Assembly: GCA_024680555.1 (NCBI GenBank)
Contig: JAILCC010000019.1
Location: 1-64,000 of the forward strand
From: a bacterium
GTDB lineage: Bacteria; Cyanobacteriota; Vampirovibrionia; Gastranaerophilales; JAILCC01
Direction of reading: 5' to 3'
DNA: 64,000 nt
Positions 4,816 to 50,370 of this stretch are shown here, one piece after another (the first letter of the stretch is position 1; each line of letters starts with the position of its first letter). The position numbers and the translations under genes were made by a program. Under the pieces are notes generated by a model, which had not been told where the DNA came from, searched no databases, and saw only the letters and a list, made by a program, of their open reading frames with translations.

Positions 4816-4850
4816 AAAAAAAGACCCTTTCGGGTCTCTCTCCAAGATTC
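4816..4850 (-). terminator. Terminator copy 1 of a duplicated tRNA-Ser-type trailer
   Basis: The hairpin GACCC-TTTC-GGGTC is followed on the minus strand by seven T residues. The same roughly 35-base block recurs at 4922-4956, each time next to a fragment resembling a tRNA-Ser 3' end. It is a good rho-independent terminator for minus-strand transcription. Confidence 0.7.
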
Positions 4851-4920
4851 TCAGAAGGGGGACTTCCCGAACTCGTGAGGGAACTGCGGCTTGTCCGCAT
4901 GAGGTTCGAATCCCCCAATA
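4850..4920 (-). repeat. tRNA-Ser-derived hairpin cassette
   Basis: This block lies between two copies of the same terminator. Closing arms GGGGGA (4857-4862) and TCCCCC (4911-4916) enclose two further hairpins: TTCCC/GGGAA with a 10-base loop and TGCGG/CCGCA with a 5-base loop. The right arm contains GGTTCGAATCCCCC, which is identical to the T-loop and 3' T-stem of the neighbouring tRNA-Ser but in inverted orientation. On the minus strand the block ends in a CCCCCTTCTGAG sequence resembling the tRNA-Ser 3' end. The architecture parallels the cassettes downstream of tRNA-Pro at 48.7 kb. Function is unknown; it may be a decayed tRNA duplication or a structured RNA. Confidence 0.6.
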
Positions 4921-4921
4921 C

Positions 4922-4956
4922 AAAAAAAGACCCTTTCGGGTCTCTCTCCAAGATTC
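4922..4956 (-). terminator. Terminator copy 2 of the duplicated trailer
   Basis: This is the same hairpin and T-run as at 4816-4850. It directly follows, on the minus strand, a CCCCCCTTCTCCGAATC remnant (4955-4970) that looks like the 3' end of a lost tRNA-Ser copy. Confidence 0.7.
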
Positions 4957-4990
4957 GGAGAAGGGGGGATTTTTCTTGAATTTTGCTCCA

Positions 4991-5049
4991 CGATTGCAGA
5001 TGCCTCCTACCCCCTCAATTATTCGGGGTTGTCGTCGGCACTGCAATCG
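4991..5049. repeat. Large imperfect inverted repeat in the tRNA-Ser spacer
   Basis: The arms CGATTGCAG (4991-4999) and CTGCAATCG (5041-5049) are perfectly complementary. The pairing continues inward with TGCC/GGCA and CCCC/GGGG. A smaller hairpin, TGGCAC-TTT-GTGCCA, follows near 5061-5075. No gene was recognised between 4508 and 5171; apart from the promoter, the duplicated trailers and these hairpins, nothing else can be assigned. Confidence 0.6.
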
Positions 5050-5132
5050 TCACTTCGAGTTTGGCACTTTGTGCCATCACTCTACGCAAAATTCGCCGAA
5101 CCCCAAATTAGGATTCTCGTCCTCCCCTTAAT

Positions 5133-5170
5133 ATTAAATCCCGACTATCTGATGATAATCGGGATTTAAT
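5133..5170 (-). terminator. Perfect hairpin immediately 3' of tRNA-Ser
   Basis: A 12-base perfect stem, ATTAAATCCCGA (5133-5144) with TCGGGATTTAAT (5159-5170), starts one base beyond the tRNA discriminator. There is no clear T-run, so it may act in 3'-end processing as well as termination. Confidence 0.6.
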
Positions 5171-5171
5171 T

Positions 5172-5261
5172 CGGAGAAAGGGGGATTCGAACCCCCGGTA
5201 CAGGTTATCCCCATACAACTTCTTAGCAGGAAGCCGCTTTCAGCCACTCAGCCACTTCTCC
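5172..5261 (-). tRNA. tRNA-Ser(GCU)
   Basis: The minus-strand sequence starts GGAGAAGTGGCTGAGTGG and ends in the T-arm GGTTCGAATCCCCC, acceptor strand TTTCTCC and discriminator G. The acceptor pairs over seven positions with one G-U. The anticodon loop reads CTGCTAA, giving GCU. The long variable arm and 90-base length are typical of class II serine tRNAs. CCA is not encoded. Confidence 0.95.
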
Positions 5262-5303
5262 GTACCCTCTTAGGATACCATAAAATTCTTTTTGTGCAAA
5301 TAT

Positions 5304-48612: not shown

Positions 48613-48635
48613 TTATTGGAAATATTTTATTCCTG

Positions 48636-48653
48636 CCATACGTTTCCGATGGC
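48636..48653 (-). terminator. Degenerate third copy of the tRNA-Pro terminator
   Basis: CCATACGTTTCCGATGG resembles the hairpins at 48738 and 48841 but has an unpaired insertion. It ends the cassette array. Confidence 0.5.
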
Positions 48654-48660
48654 CCTAAAA

Positions 48661-48730
48661 TGGTCGGGATGACAGGACTAGGCGAACAACGCGGAGCCGC
48701 ATACAGATTAAAGAGTTCAAATCCTGTCAT
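48661..48730 (-). repeat. tRNA-Pro-derived cassette A
   Basis: Read on the minus strand, this 70-base block starts ATGACAGGATTTGAAC, an inverted copy of the 3' part of tRNA-Pro. It has a core with ATGCGG-CT-CCGCG, and ends TCCTGTCATCCCGACCA, identical to the tRNA-Pro 3' end including CCA. Arms ATGACAGGA and TCCTGTCAT pair perfectly. It is nearly identical to cassette B. Confidence 0.8.
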
Positions 48731-48737
48731 AAAAAGA

Positions 48738-48757
48738 GACCATCGTTTCCGATGGTC
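48738..48757 (-). terminator. Terminator copy between tRNA-Pro cassettes
   Basis: GACCATCG-TTTC-CGATGGTC followed on the minus strand by a short T-rich run (TCTCTTTTT). It is an exact copy of the hairpin at 48841-48860. Confidence 0.75.
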
Positions 48758-48763
48758 CTAAAA

Positions 48764-48832
48764 TGGTCGGGATGACAGGACTAGGCGAGCAACGCGGAGC
48801 CGCATACGATTCAAGAGTTCAAATCCTGTCAT
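48764..48832 (-). repeat. tRNA-Pro-derived cassette B
   Basis: This 69-base block has the same layout as cassette A, differing by a few bases in the core (GCTCGCC versus GTTCGCC). It lies directly after the tRNA-Pro terminator. The inverted arm could pair with the 3' 16 bases of tRNA-Pro itself in a readthrough transcript. Confidence 0.8.
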
Positions 48833-48840
48833 AAAAAAAA

Positions 48841-48860
48841 GACCATCGTTTCCGATGGTC
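48841..48860 (-). terminator. Terminator of tRNA-Pro
   Basis: A perfect eight-base stem, GACCATCG/CGATGGTC with loop TTTC, is followed on the minus strand by eight T residues. Confidence 0.85.
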
Positions 48861-48866
48861 CTAAAA

Positions 48867-48943
48867 TGGTCGGGATGACAGGATTTGAACCTGCGACCCC
48901 CTCGTCCCAAGCGAGGTGCGCTACCAAGCTGCGCCACATCCCG
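48867..48943 (-). tRNA. tRNA-Pro(UGG)
   Basis: The minus strand begins CGGGATGTGGCGCAGCTTGG. The anticodon loop CTTGGGA gives anticodon UGG; the T-loop is GGTTCAAATCC and the end is CATCCCG-A-CCA with encoded CCA. The acceptor pairs perfectly. Length 77 bases. The 5' C1 is usual for proline tRNAs. Confidence 0.96.
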
Positions 48944-48982
48944 GTAAATACATTTTACGACAAAACTTATTTTATTTTCAAT

Positions 48983-49063
48983 TGGTCGGAATTTGCGAGG
49001 TGCTACCTCTCACGAACGATACTCAATCGTTCGTTCGGCAGAGTCAAGCTGCGCTACATCCCG
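48983..49063 (-). other. tRNA-Pro-derived cloverleaf-like element with encoded CCA
   Basis: This 81-base segment begins CGGGATGTAGCGCAGCTTG, almost the tRNA-Pro 5' end, and ends ATTCCG-A-CCA. The ends pair over six positions (one G-U) like an acceptor stem. Inside are three self-complementary hairpins: GCAG/CTGC, ACGAACGAT/ATCGTTCGT with loop TGAGT, and GAGGT/ACCTC with loop AGC. There is no standard anticodon loop or T-loop. The segment GGTAGC-ACCTCGC also comes from tRNA-Pro, so the element looks like a tRNA with a 36-base insertion in the D-loop and loss of most of the 3' half. It could be a decayed tRNA or a tRNA-like RNA. Confidence 0.55.
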
Positions 49064-49104
49064 ATGTGCTACGCACGTATTCATAGTAACATAATCAGAT
49101 TTTT

Positions 49105-50370
49105 TTACAAGTTTTTCAAACTATTATCTATATCTGCAATAATGTCATTGACATTTTCAAGCCCGACAGAAAGTCTTACCAATCCGGGATTAATACCGCA
49201 AGCTAATAACTGTTCATCGGTAAGTTGCCTGTGTGTTGCACTTGCAGGGTGCAAGATGCATGTTCTTATATCGGCAACGTGAACTTCGTTACAAGCCAAA
49301 TTCAAACCGTCAATAAACTTAACAGCTTTTTCTTTGCCCCCTTTTATCGTCAGTGCCATAACTCCGCTACATCCGTCCGGAAGATATTTTTGAGCAAGGT
49401 CGTAATATTTATTATCACTAAGTCTCGGATAATTTACCGCTTCAATTTTGTCTGATTGTTCAACAAACTTTGCTACTTCCATCGCATTTTTACAGTATTG
49501 CTTCATTCTTAGAGCAAGTGTTTCAAGTCCTATATTAAGCAAAAAGCCGGAATGCCCTGACGGATATGCACCAAAATCTCTCATTAACTGCATTCTTGCC
49601 TTAATAATATACGGCGCAAACGCATAATCACGAGTATAAATCGTTCCGTGATATGATTCATCAGGCTCGGTAAAATCGGGGAAATTGCCGTTTGCATAGT
49701 CAAACTTACCGGAATCAACAATTACACCGCCAACCTGAAGAGCATGCCCATCCATATACTTTGTTGTTGAATGGATAACAACATCGGCACCCCATTCAAT
49801 CGGTCTGCAAAGGATTGGTGTCGGAAATGTATTATCTATTATGAGCGGAATACCGTTTTTGTGAGCAACTTTTGCAAATTTTTCTATATCAAACACCTGT
49901 AATGACGGGTTAGTTAATGTTTCGCCAAAGATGAGTTTTGTATTAGGTTTTATGGCTTTTTGTATTTCTTCTTCCGTAGAATCAACATCAACGTAAATAC
50001 ATTCTATTCCCAGTTTTTTTAATGTTATCGAAAACAGGTTAACCGTTCCGCCATATATTGATGCGGAAGAAACAAAGCTGTCGCCGGCACTGCAAAGGTT
50101 TAATATTGACATCAATGACGCCATTTGACCTGAAGAAGTACACATGGCAGCAACGCCACCTTCTAATTCGGCTATCTTTTTTTCAACGCAATCTACAGTC
50201 GGGTTTGTAAATCTTGTATAAATATGAGCCTTGGTCGGATCATTAAAAACGTCACCGATTTCATCACTCGAATGAAATCTGAATGTTGTGCTTTGGTATA
50301 TTGGCATAACTCCGGGACCGCCGTTTTCTGGTTTGTAACCGGCGTGTAAACATTTTGTTTCTTTTTCCAT
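49105..50370 (-). CDS. metY: O-acetylhomoserine sulfhydrylase-type trans-sulfuration enzyme
   Basis: The 421-residue Cys/Met-metabolism PLP enzyme has TRFTNPTVDCVEKKIAELEGG, SSGQMASL, FGETLTNPSL, the PLP lysine in HSTTKYMDGHA and GVMALTIKGGKEKAV. Length and the SYHGTIYTRDYAF insert fit O-acetylhomoserine aminocarboxypropyltransferase (homocysteine from sulfide); methionine gamma-lyase or cystathionine gamma-synthase are possible alternatives. A good promoter lies upstream at 50411-50438. Confidence 0.87.
   Translation of the reverse strand: MEKETKCLHAGYKPENGGPGVMPIYQSTTFRFHSSDEIGDVFNDPTKAHIYTRFTNPTVDCVEKKIAELEGGVAAMCTSSGQMASLMSILNLCSAGDSFVSSASIYGGTVNLFSITLKKLGIECIYVDVDSTEEEIQKAIKPNTKLIFGETLTNPSLQVFDIEKFAKVAHKNGIPLIIDNTFPTPILCRPIEWGADVVIHSTTKYMDGHALQVGGVIVDSGKFDYANGNFPDFTEPDESYHGTIYTRDYAFAPYIIKARMQLMRDFGAYPSGHSGFLLNIGLETLALRMKQYCKNAMEVAKFVEQSDKIEAVNYPRLSDNKYYDLAQKYLPDGCSGVMALTIKGGKEKAVKFIDGLNLACNEVHVADIRTCILHPASATHRQLTDEQLLACGINPGLVRLSVGLENVNDIIADIDNSLKNL

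Follow-up and report, generated by a model that had tools for sequence, protein, structure and literature searches.

Behind tRNA genes of a gut bacterium and its relatives stand short hairpin cassettes that look like undescribed, tiny mobile DNA tailored to tRNA genes. The observation is real and recurrent, and it is not the decayed curiosity of one locus: the pair of cassettes behind tRNA-Pro in the window (i.e., the whole stretch of 64,000 nt that was analysed) is a short, tandemly amplified member of a wider cassette family. On balance, and with considerable reserve, we regard the cassettes (approximately 75-300 bp) as mobile palindromes that have no genes, are non-autonomous and use the 3' ends of tRNA and tmRNA genes as insertion sites.

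Genes for tRNA are classical landing sites of mobile DNA. To our knowledge, the users of these genes described so far possess an integrase, and each is specialised for one tRNA or a few of them. Gene-less palindromes that occur in three genomes behind about one tRNA gene in three, in others behind tmRNA and 5S rRNA, and that carry the T-arm of the host gene, would call for a mechanism of copying or insertion to which we cannot put a name. The cassettes may also account for repeats, and for the ends of contigs, in the vicinity of tRNA genes of this common gut lineage.

The tRNA-Pro locus and other units of the window

The host belongs to the order Candidatus Gastranaerophilales, and its genome (G000) comprises 1.79 Mb in 25 contigs. 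On the 3' side of tRNA-Pro(TGG) lie two tandem units of 103 bp, and the direct repeat D1 occurs three times at spacings of 103 and 103 nt. The order of elements proposed in an earlier note on this DNA (tRNA-Pro, terminator, cassette B, terminator, cassette A, degenerate terminator) was confirmed, the inverted arms, cores and tRNA tails standing where the note had placed them (Table 1). On the minus strand, cassette B covers 48832-48764 and cassette A covers 48730-48661, and a terminator precedes each of them.

According to the same note, each cassette opens with an inverted copy of the last 16 bases of the tRNA. Perfect inverted copies of 16 nt are indeed present in both cassettes (100% complementary to the 3' region of tRNA-Pro), but they derive from the T-loop, the T-stem and the first bases of the acceptor strand (GTTCAAATCCTGTCAT) instead of the last 16 bases. 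Closure by the last 17 nt of the tRNA, including CCA, holds for both A and B, and the 16-nt tail of tRNA-Pro occurs three times against 0.13 expected by chance. Likewise, the core that the cassettes were said to share is there in two copies (16 nt, at most three mismatches; 0.16 expected by chance). Cassette B folds best into a hairpin, with the arms derived from the T-arm as its closing stem. A pseudoknot for the Pro-type core was abandoned, a simple hairpin being preferred. A stem of at least 5 pairs adjoins the core in 16 of 41 core sites (which include L148, L154, L161 and L165, otherwise read as coding or chance) vs 5.2% of re-paired controls; this flanking stem is absent from the two copies in the window, which score only 2. 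An ORF of 138 aa that starts with MVGMTGFEPATPSSQAR (48866-49282, plus strand) runs antisense to tRNA-Pro and is likely an annotation trap.

Table 1. Features of the tRNA-Pro and tRNA-Ser loci in the window.
Feature	Position	Strand	Support
tRNA-Pro(TGG), intact	48867..48943	-	ARAGORN; RF00005 66.5 bits
Terminator 1, GGACCATCGGAAACGATGGTC + T8	48833..48866	-	
Cassette B, inverted T-arm copy ATGACAGGATTTGAAC	48817..48832	-	inverted repeat I2, 100%
Cassette B, core GCGGCTCCGCGTTGCTCGCC, short form of the GGCTC..CGCC loop	48784..48803	-	
Cassette B, closing copy TCCTGTCATCCCGACCA, the 3' 17 nt of tRNA-Pro including CCA	48764..48780	-	
Terminator 2	48731..48763	-	
Cassette A, inverted T-arm copy	48715..48730	-	inverted repeat I1, 100%
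Cassette A, core GCGGCTCCGCGTTGTTCGCC	48681..48700	-	
Cassette A, closing copy, the 3' 17 nt of tRNA-Pro including CCA	48661..48677	-	
Terminator 3, degenerate	48627..48660	-	
Degenerate tRNA-Pro copy upstream of tRNA-Pro	48983..49063	-	direct repeat D4, 95%
tRNA-Ser(GCT)	5171..5262	-	ARAGORN
tRNA-Ser cassette 1: a palindromic terminator of its own, then a hairpin that includes a T-arm copy, a long hairpin and, at the close, the tRNA-Ser 3' end again (4971-4955)	4955..5170	-	
tRNA-Ser cassette 2, unlike the first: terminator, inverted T-arm GGGGGATTCGAACC (4916-4903), two hairpins (by eye), closing TCCCCCTTCT	4849..4954	-	

The window holds other units of this kind, which had escaped the earlier note. 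The tRNA-Ser(GCT) gene is followed by two differing cassettes in series, each closed by the tail of tRNA-Ser, with a different terminator before the first; the tRNA-Ile(gat) gene has no cassette (score 7.5). The degenerate copy upstream of tRNA-Pro retains the 5' end and CCGACCA, has lost the anticodon and T arms, and shows a D-loop hairpin (ACGAACGATTGAGTATCGTTCGT); in relatives, similar units also stand upstream of tRNA-Pro. Hairpin-bearing 5' tRNA halves, some in tandem, were seen upstream of the tRNA in L033, L030, L023, L146 and L158 as well, as a mirror of the downstream cassettes. Copies of the tRNA 5' end upstream (score of at least 13.5) amount to 2 of 30 in G000, 8 of 35 in the genome G002 and 3 of 40 in the genome G055.

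Recurrence and turnover in related genomes

In these same three genomes, the 3' end of the gene is repeated downstream of 38 of 104 tRNA genes (11 of 29 in G000, 12 of 35 in G002 and 15 of 40 in G055), and 66 lack such a copy at the threshold used, i.e., a score of at least 13 when the last 30 nt of each tRNA are aligned to its 600 nt downstream, with a flank of at least 100 nt. Among mismatched pairs of tRNA and flank, 0.92% of 10284 reach that score, in a control that includes neighbouring tRNAs. Actually, 40 tRNA genes scored at least 13 and two of them were excluded, L176 since it matches a neighbouring tRNA and L236 since all 30 nt are copied and a second gene is possible; L214 was kept despite a run of N. 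The tRNA sets consisted of 30 (G000), 35 (G002) and 42 (G055) from Rfam, and of 105 from ARAGORN on the fetched flanks. Many of the genomes compared here are fragmented drafts.

Among the loci read, cassettes or their left parts stand behind tRNA-Pro(TGG) in 20 genomes: 15 from 106 loci that were not selected as cassette-bearing (L003-L032 and L068-L143, of which the first 30 were ranked by similarity to a query that contains the window cassettes) and five reached through the core or tail pattern (G078, G089, G101, G189 and G269). These Pro cassettes are mostly longer than those of the window, and are composed of an inverted T-arm (e.g., CACGATTACATCGTG), a variable hairpin, a hairpin around GGCTC..CGCC, the tRNA tail and a terminator. 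In L137, with CATG as T-stem, the inverted arm is CATGATTACATCATG; the G089 locus, like the window, contains two similar units. Few genomes of the order, 7 of 383, have the Pro-type tail pattern when one mismatch is allowed. In a wider contig collection an 18-nt tail pattern is found in 10 stretches, four of them apparently from genomes of the order; the six from other taxa have no repeat context and look like chance. Downstream of tRNA-Pro in L014, L017, L018, L023, L028, L031 and L132, a terminator is accompanied by variants of TTTTGCGACTGATTTTCGACTGG, possibly the attachment end of another element.

The core, which the earlier note suggested looking for beside other tRNA genes, is found there in related genomes, and the layout recurs. 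Its form GGCGAA..TGAGCC is present in 18 of 60 genomes, with matches that include free-standing sites and cassettes behind (i) tRNA-Val, in G000 itself; (ii) tRNA-Leu; (iii) tRNA-Asp; (iv) tRNA-Pro(CGG); and (v) 5S rRNA. The core-pattern matches L034, L036, L037, L039, L041, L044, L148, L154, L161 and L165 were read as coding or chance and set aside. As for 5S rRNA, the gene before the cassette is established in L172 (Rfam 80.1 bits), while L168 and L173, whose contigs hold only the gene end, were read as 5S rRNA by eye and without confirmation by Rfam. Cassettes also stand behind tmRNA (L279 and L367), and in L364 differing cassettes with different terminators follow one gene.

The best-sampled type of cassette, type C, was aligned as 40 matches from 40 chosen sources by means of a model, R1. 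A tRNA or tmRNA gene lies upstream on the same strand within 700 nt of 31 of these matches, which start 63-94 nt past the gene in 25 cases and 222-302 nt past it in 6. Strong R1 matches were considered at 27 loci (14 with at least 60 bits, L302 being excluded as part of the same array as L275, and 13 from a search of the phylum, where L362 is a training cassette; many further matches are not among them), and 24 of the 27 lie behind a tRNA (22) or tmRNA (2) of the same strand, at a distance of about 750 nt in one case. The remaining three (L283, L369 and L370) have no tRNA upstream, and each closes with a tail that resembles tRNA-Asp. The T-arm copy of the L369 cassette is the exact point where the upstream DNA changes, which would fit the joining of another element at this place; T-arm copies may act as decoy attachment sites.

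Free-standing relatives of type C without a tRNA were found as weaker matches in L288, L289, L291, L292, L294 and L297. The type C-like hairpin of L288 (G017:C23) is located between genes that, by eye, look like those for ribosomal proteins L35 and L20. Six viral contigs of IMG/VR (L356-L361) carry free-standing relatives of the type C hairpin and no tRNA genes; a second type C pattern had no match in viral contigs, and type A patterns and similarity searches of viral and phage collections returned nothing.

The distribution of these cassettes is patchy. Ten genomes of one genus (g4) have 19, 19, 13, 8, 5, 5, 1, 0, 0 and 0 copies. Behind tRNA-Arg(tct), G020 has two identical units of 184 bp, and G215 provides the orthologous empty site, with the same tRNA-Arg(tct), 59 of 60 upstream bases, the same downstream gene and no cassette; G065 also lacks the cassette at this gene. 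At an E-value of 1e-7, R1 matches 53 of 146 genomes of the phylum, and all 53 belong to the same order. It matches none of 11 genomes listed as of the same class or phylum, and 73 further matchless genomes have no listed kinship. In G000, R1 finds no match, as the model does not reach the host's own variant cassettes.

Structure, tailoring and possible origin of the cassettes

Compensatory change in the arms, for which the earlier note had proposed a covariation test, was found. In the 40-sequence alignment, which was fitted to the structure and hence flatters the figures, 95.0% of 938 cells of the type C core are paired vs 66.6% after shuffling and at most 42.8% after sliding, and 266 cells show double changes vs 76.9 after shuffling. 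The alignment of the 11 cassettes behind 11 tRNA genes of G055 was not so fitted; there, RNAalifold gives 25 pairs, 18 of them with compensatory double changes. RNA stems tolerate G-U pairs, while DNA hairpins and structures formed on both strands do not. The standard pairs of type C comprise 846 Watson-Crick and 9 G-U (9/855, 1%; one pair that is nearly always G-U is left out of this count), compared with 2151 Watson-Crick and 175 G-U (175/2326, 7.5%) in the tRNA stems of the three genomes; the Fisher p of 3e-15 is no true probability, since the sequences are related. This depletion points to DNA palindromes, or to a structure of both strands, rather than to RNA.

The strong covariation, the position on the same strand close behind the gene (31 of 40 type C matches) and T-arm copies that could pair with the tRNA would also suit a structured RNA, that is, a readthrough trailer that folds or pairs with the T-arm of the tRNA as a mimic, a sponge or a control of processing. 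However, the pairing is nearly pure Watson-Crick, terminators stand before both window cassettes and many others, related hairpins are free-standing or lie on viral contigs, no cassette reaches an Rfam gathering score, and 66 of 104 tRNA genes are without a copy at threshold. The tRNA-mimic or T-arm-pairing RNA envisaged in the earlier note is thus unsupported, and we judge a structured RNA of this kind distinctly unlikely. The Rfam search covered the window and the relatives' loci: the Pro locus gave the tRNA above threshold and four sub-threshold matches, other loci gave tRNAs, one tmRNA and the 5S rRNA of L172, and, among other sub-threshold matches, psRNA14 overlaps the L198 cassette on the opposite strand (E 0.011) and rli61 lies beside the L283 cassette (E 0.0044).

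The cassettes also follow the sequence of the gene behind which they stand. Of 29 distinct cassettes that follow an RNA gene, 27 have the base of the host gene at position 52 of the T-stem, vs 11.8 expected from permutation (none of 20000 permutations reaches 27); agreement is weaker at positions 50 and 51 (p 0.02 and 0.04) and there is none at position 49 (p 0.11). In the alignment A1, the inner hairpins are near-identical across the Met, Ser-gct and Ser-gga cassettes and the outer stems differ, so that modules seem to move between loci. A bolder and rather doubtful reading is that of a class of gene-less mobile DNA which customises itself to its target, the T-arm of the host being rebuilt around a shared hairpin at each insertion, so that one family colonises many tRNA genes and tmRNA harmlessly.

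From the arrangement of the cassettes we infer mobility as a process, a DNA-hairpin intermediate and a duplication of the target. In the proposed mechanism, (i) insertion would duplicate the segment that reaches from the T-loop as far as the discriminator base or CCA, and the tRNA would thereby keep a complete 3' end; (ii) the old tRNA end would be pushed downstream, behind the cassette; (iii) the insert, in type C, would often bring its own palindromic terminator, a hairpin of the 5' strand of the T-arm and its inverse, and also an imperfect palindrome common to cassettes of different tRNAs; and (iv) arrays would arise from repeated insertion and tandem amplification, with decay of the distal copies. 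A putative recombinase or transposase probably recognises a folded DNA strand, not RNA. Reverse transcription halting at a modified base of the T-loop was considered as a putative source of the left border of the tail copy.

The tail copy starts in or beside the T-loop. At L234 (Lys) and L248 (Asp) the distal copy alone is followed by an encoded CCA, the insert beginning between the discriminator base and CCA. Such a start and such a placement of CCA are expected from an insertion that duplicates the T-loop to the end of the tRNA; the T-arm copy inside the insert is not expected of a simple insertion and counts against it. The terminators before and behind the cassette differ in L234, L241, L245, L248 and L254, and agree in L240, L247, L267 and the window. 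Like terminators are explained by tandem duplication and not by a duplication of 17 nt; hence, insertion with an own terminator and later tandem amplification both seem to be needed.

Duplication has also to be weighed as the sole cause, as the earlier note did with a decayed tandem tRNA duplication: the 3' ends of tRNAs would be passively copied in tandem by slippage and template switching, and would then decay. In this manner the tandem units, identical or near-identical, and the degenerate distal copies find an explanation, and template switching would give inverted copies. Nevertheless, hairpin modules common to different tRNAs of one genome, to tmRNA and to free-standing relatives, compensatory changes, and different successive terminators within one array are left unexplained, and we consider passive duplication quite improbable.

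Regarding the enzyme, tyrosine recombinases (PF00589) are present in 14 of 14 genomes, but only one was found in G000 (87% complete), where 11 tRNA genes have cassettes. Y1 transposases (PF01797) are present in 2 of the 14, and there is none in G000, G002, G055, G010, G028 and G038. In 20 regions around tyrosine-recombinase genes, mostly small ones, a tRNA gene lies in 4, i.e., no link. No candidate emerged from PF01797, PF00589 or these 20 regions.

Some of these features would also be left by ordinary integrative elements, whose tyrosine integrases cross over in the T-loop: the cassettes would then be gene-less attL/attR remnants, with the tRNA tail copy as attR. What is duplicated, the stretch from T-loop to 3' end, matches the classical att identity block; in L064 (G101:C7) about 1.7 kb separate tRNA-Pro from a displaced 3' copy and cassette, and the orphan tRNA-Asp-tailed cassettes L283, L369 and L370 lack an upstream tRNA as if other DNA had intervened. 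This origin is unlikely, however: one hairpin core is common to cassettes of tmRNA and of many tRNA species, 5S rRNA having other cores, whereas remnants of unrelated integrases should not share a core; moreover, the T-stem of the cassette is tailored to each tRNA, and G000 has that single tyrosine recombinase.

Comparison with known systems

The earlier note knew of no described family with such a layout, and no description was found in the one open-access library searched. Palindromic candidate RNAs have been reported from human microbiomes, and the portion of that report consulted does not mention the cassette layout (PMC8040213). REPs are described as palindromes of 20-40 bp with a GTAG or CGTC tag (PMC3733652). 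Cassettes resemble the REP/REPIN (Y1/RAYT) system in being imperfect palindromes of small size and without genes, which are dispersed with a patchy distribution and amplified in tandem. But, unlike REPs, they stand behind RNA genes, duplicate the 3' end of the gene, copy the T-arm and often carry terminators; by eye, no GTAG or CGTC tag is fixed beside the hairpin in the alignments A1 and A2, the cassette palindrome measures about 80-110 nt, and a Y1 transposase is present in just 2 of 14 genomes.

MITEs and Rickettsia palindromic elements are non-autonomous palindromic inserts of about 100-200 bp with many copies, and the cassettes are likewise non-autonomous, palindromic and multi-copy. Unlike in these elements, no fixed terminal inverted repeats were seen in the cassettes, the outer stems follow the host tRNA, and what is repeated at the flank is the tail of the tRNA, not a short duplication of the target; no autonomous partner was found via PF01797 and PF00589. 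With respect to target-site duplication, the copy from the T-loop to the end is regular, one empty site only is at hand, and the terminators are alike in some cases.

Integron attC sites are imperfect hairpins, conserved in structure and variable in sequence, that occur in arrays. Compared by layout alone, the cassettes share the hairpin arrays and differ in having no cassette genes between units.

Finally, integrative elements of tRNA genes (phages, ICEs, satellites and tycheposons) use the 3' end of tRNA or tmRNA as target, leave a distal copy of the tail and form arrays by accretion. The cassettes have in common with them the target, the distal tRNA-tail copy (38 of 104 tRNA genes) and the arrays. 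No integrase or cargo was found in the cassettes: in the printed cases the copy starts 76-320 nt past the tRNA, and the interval reads as hairpins and terminators. Hence, the cassettes differ from these elements in being gene-less, in their size of some 75-300 bp, and in that one hairpin family serves many tRNAs. We class them with the small mobile palindromes, marked off by an unusual tailoring to the host tRNA, and a wholly new kind of element is possible too.
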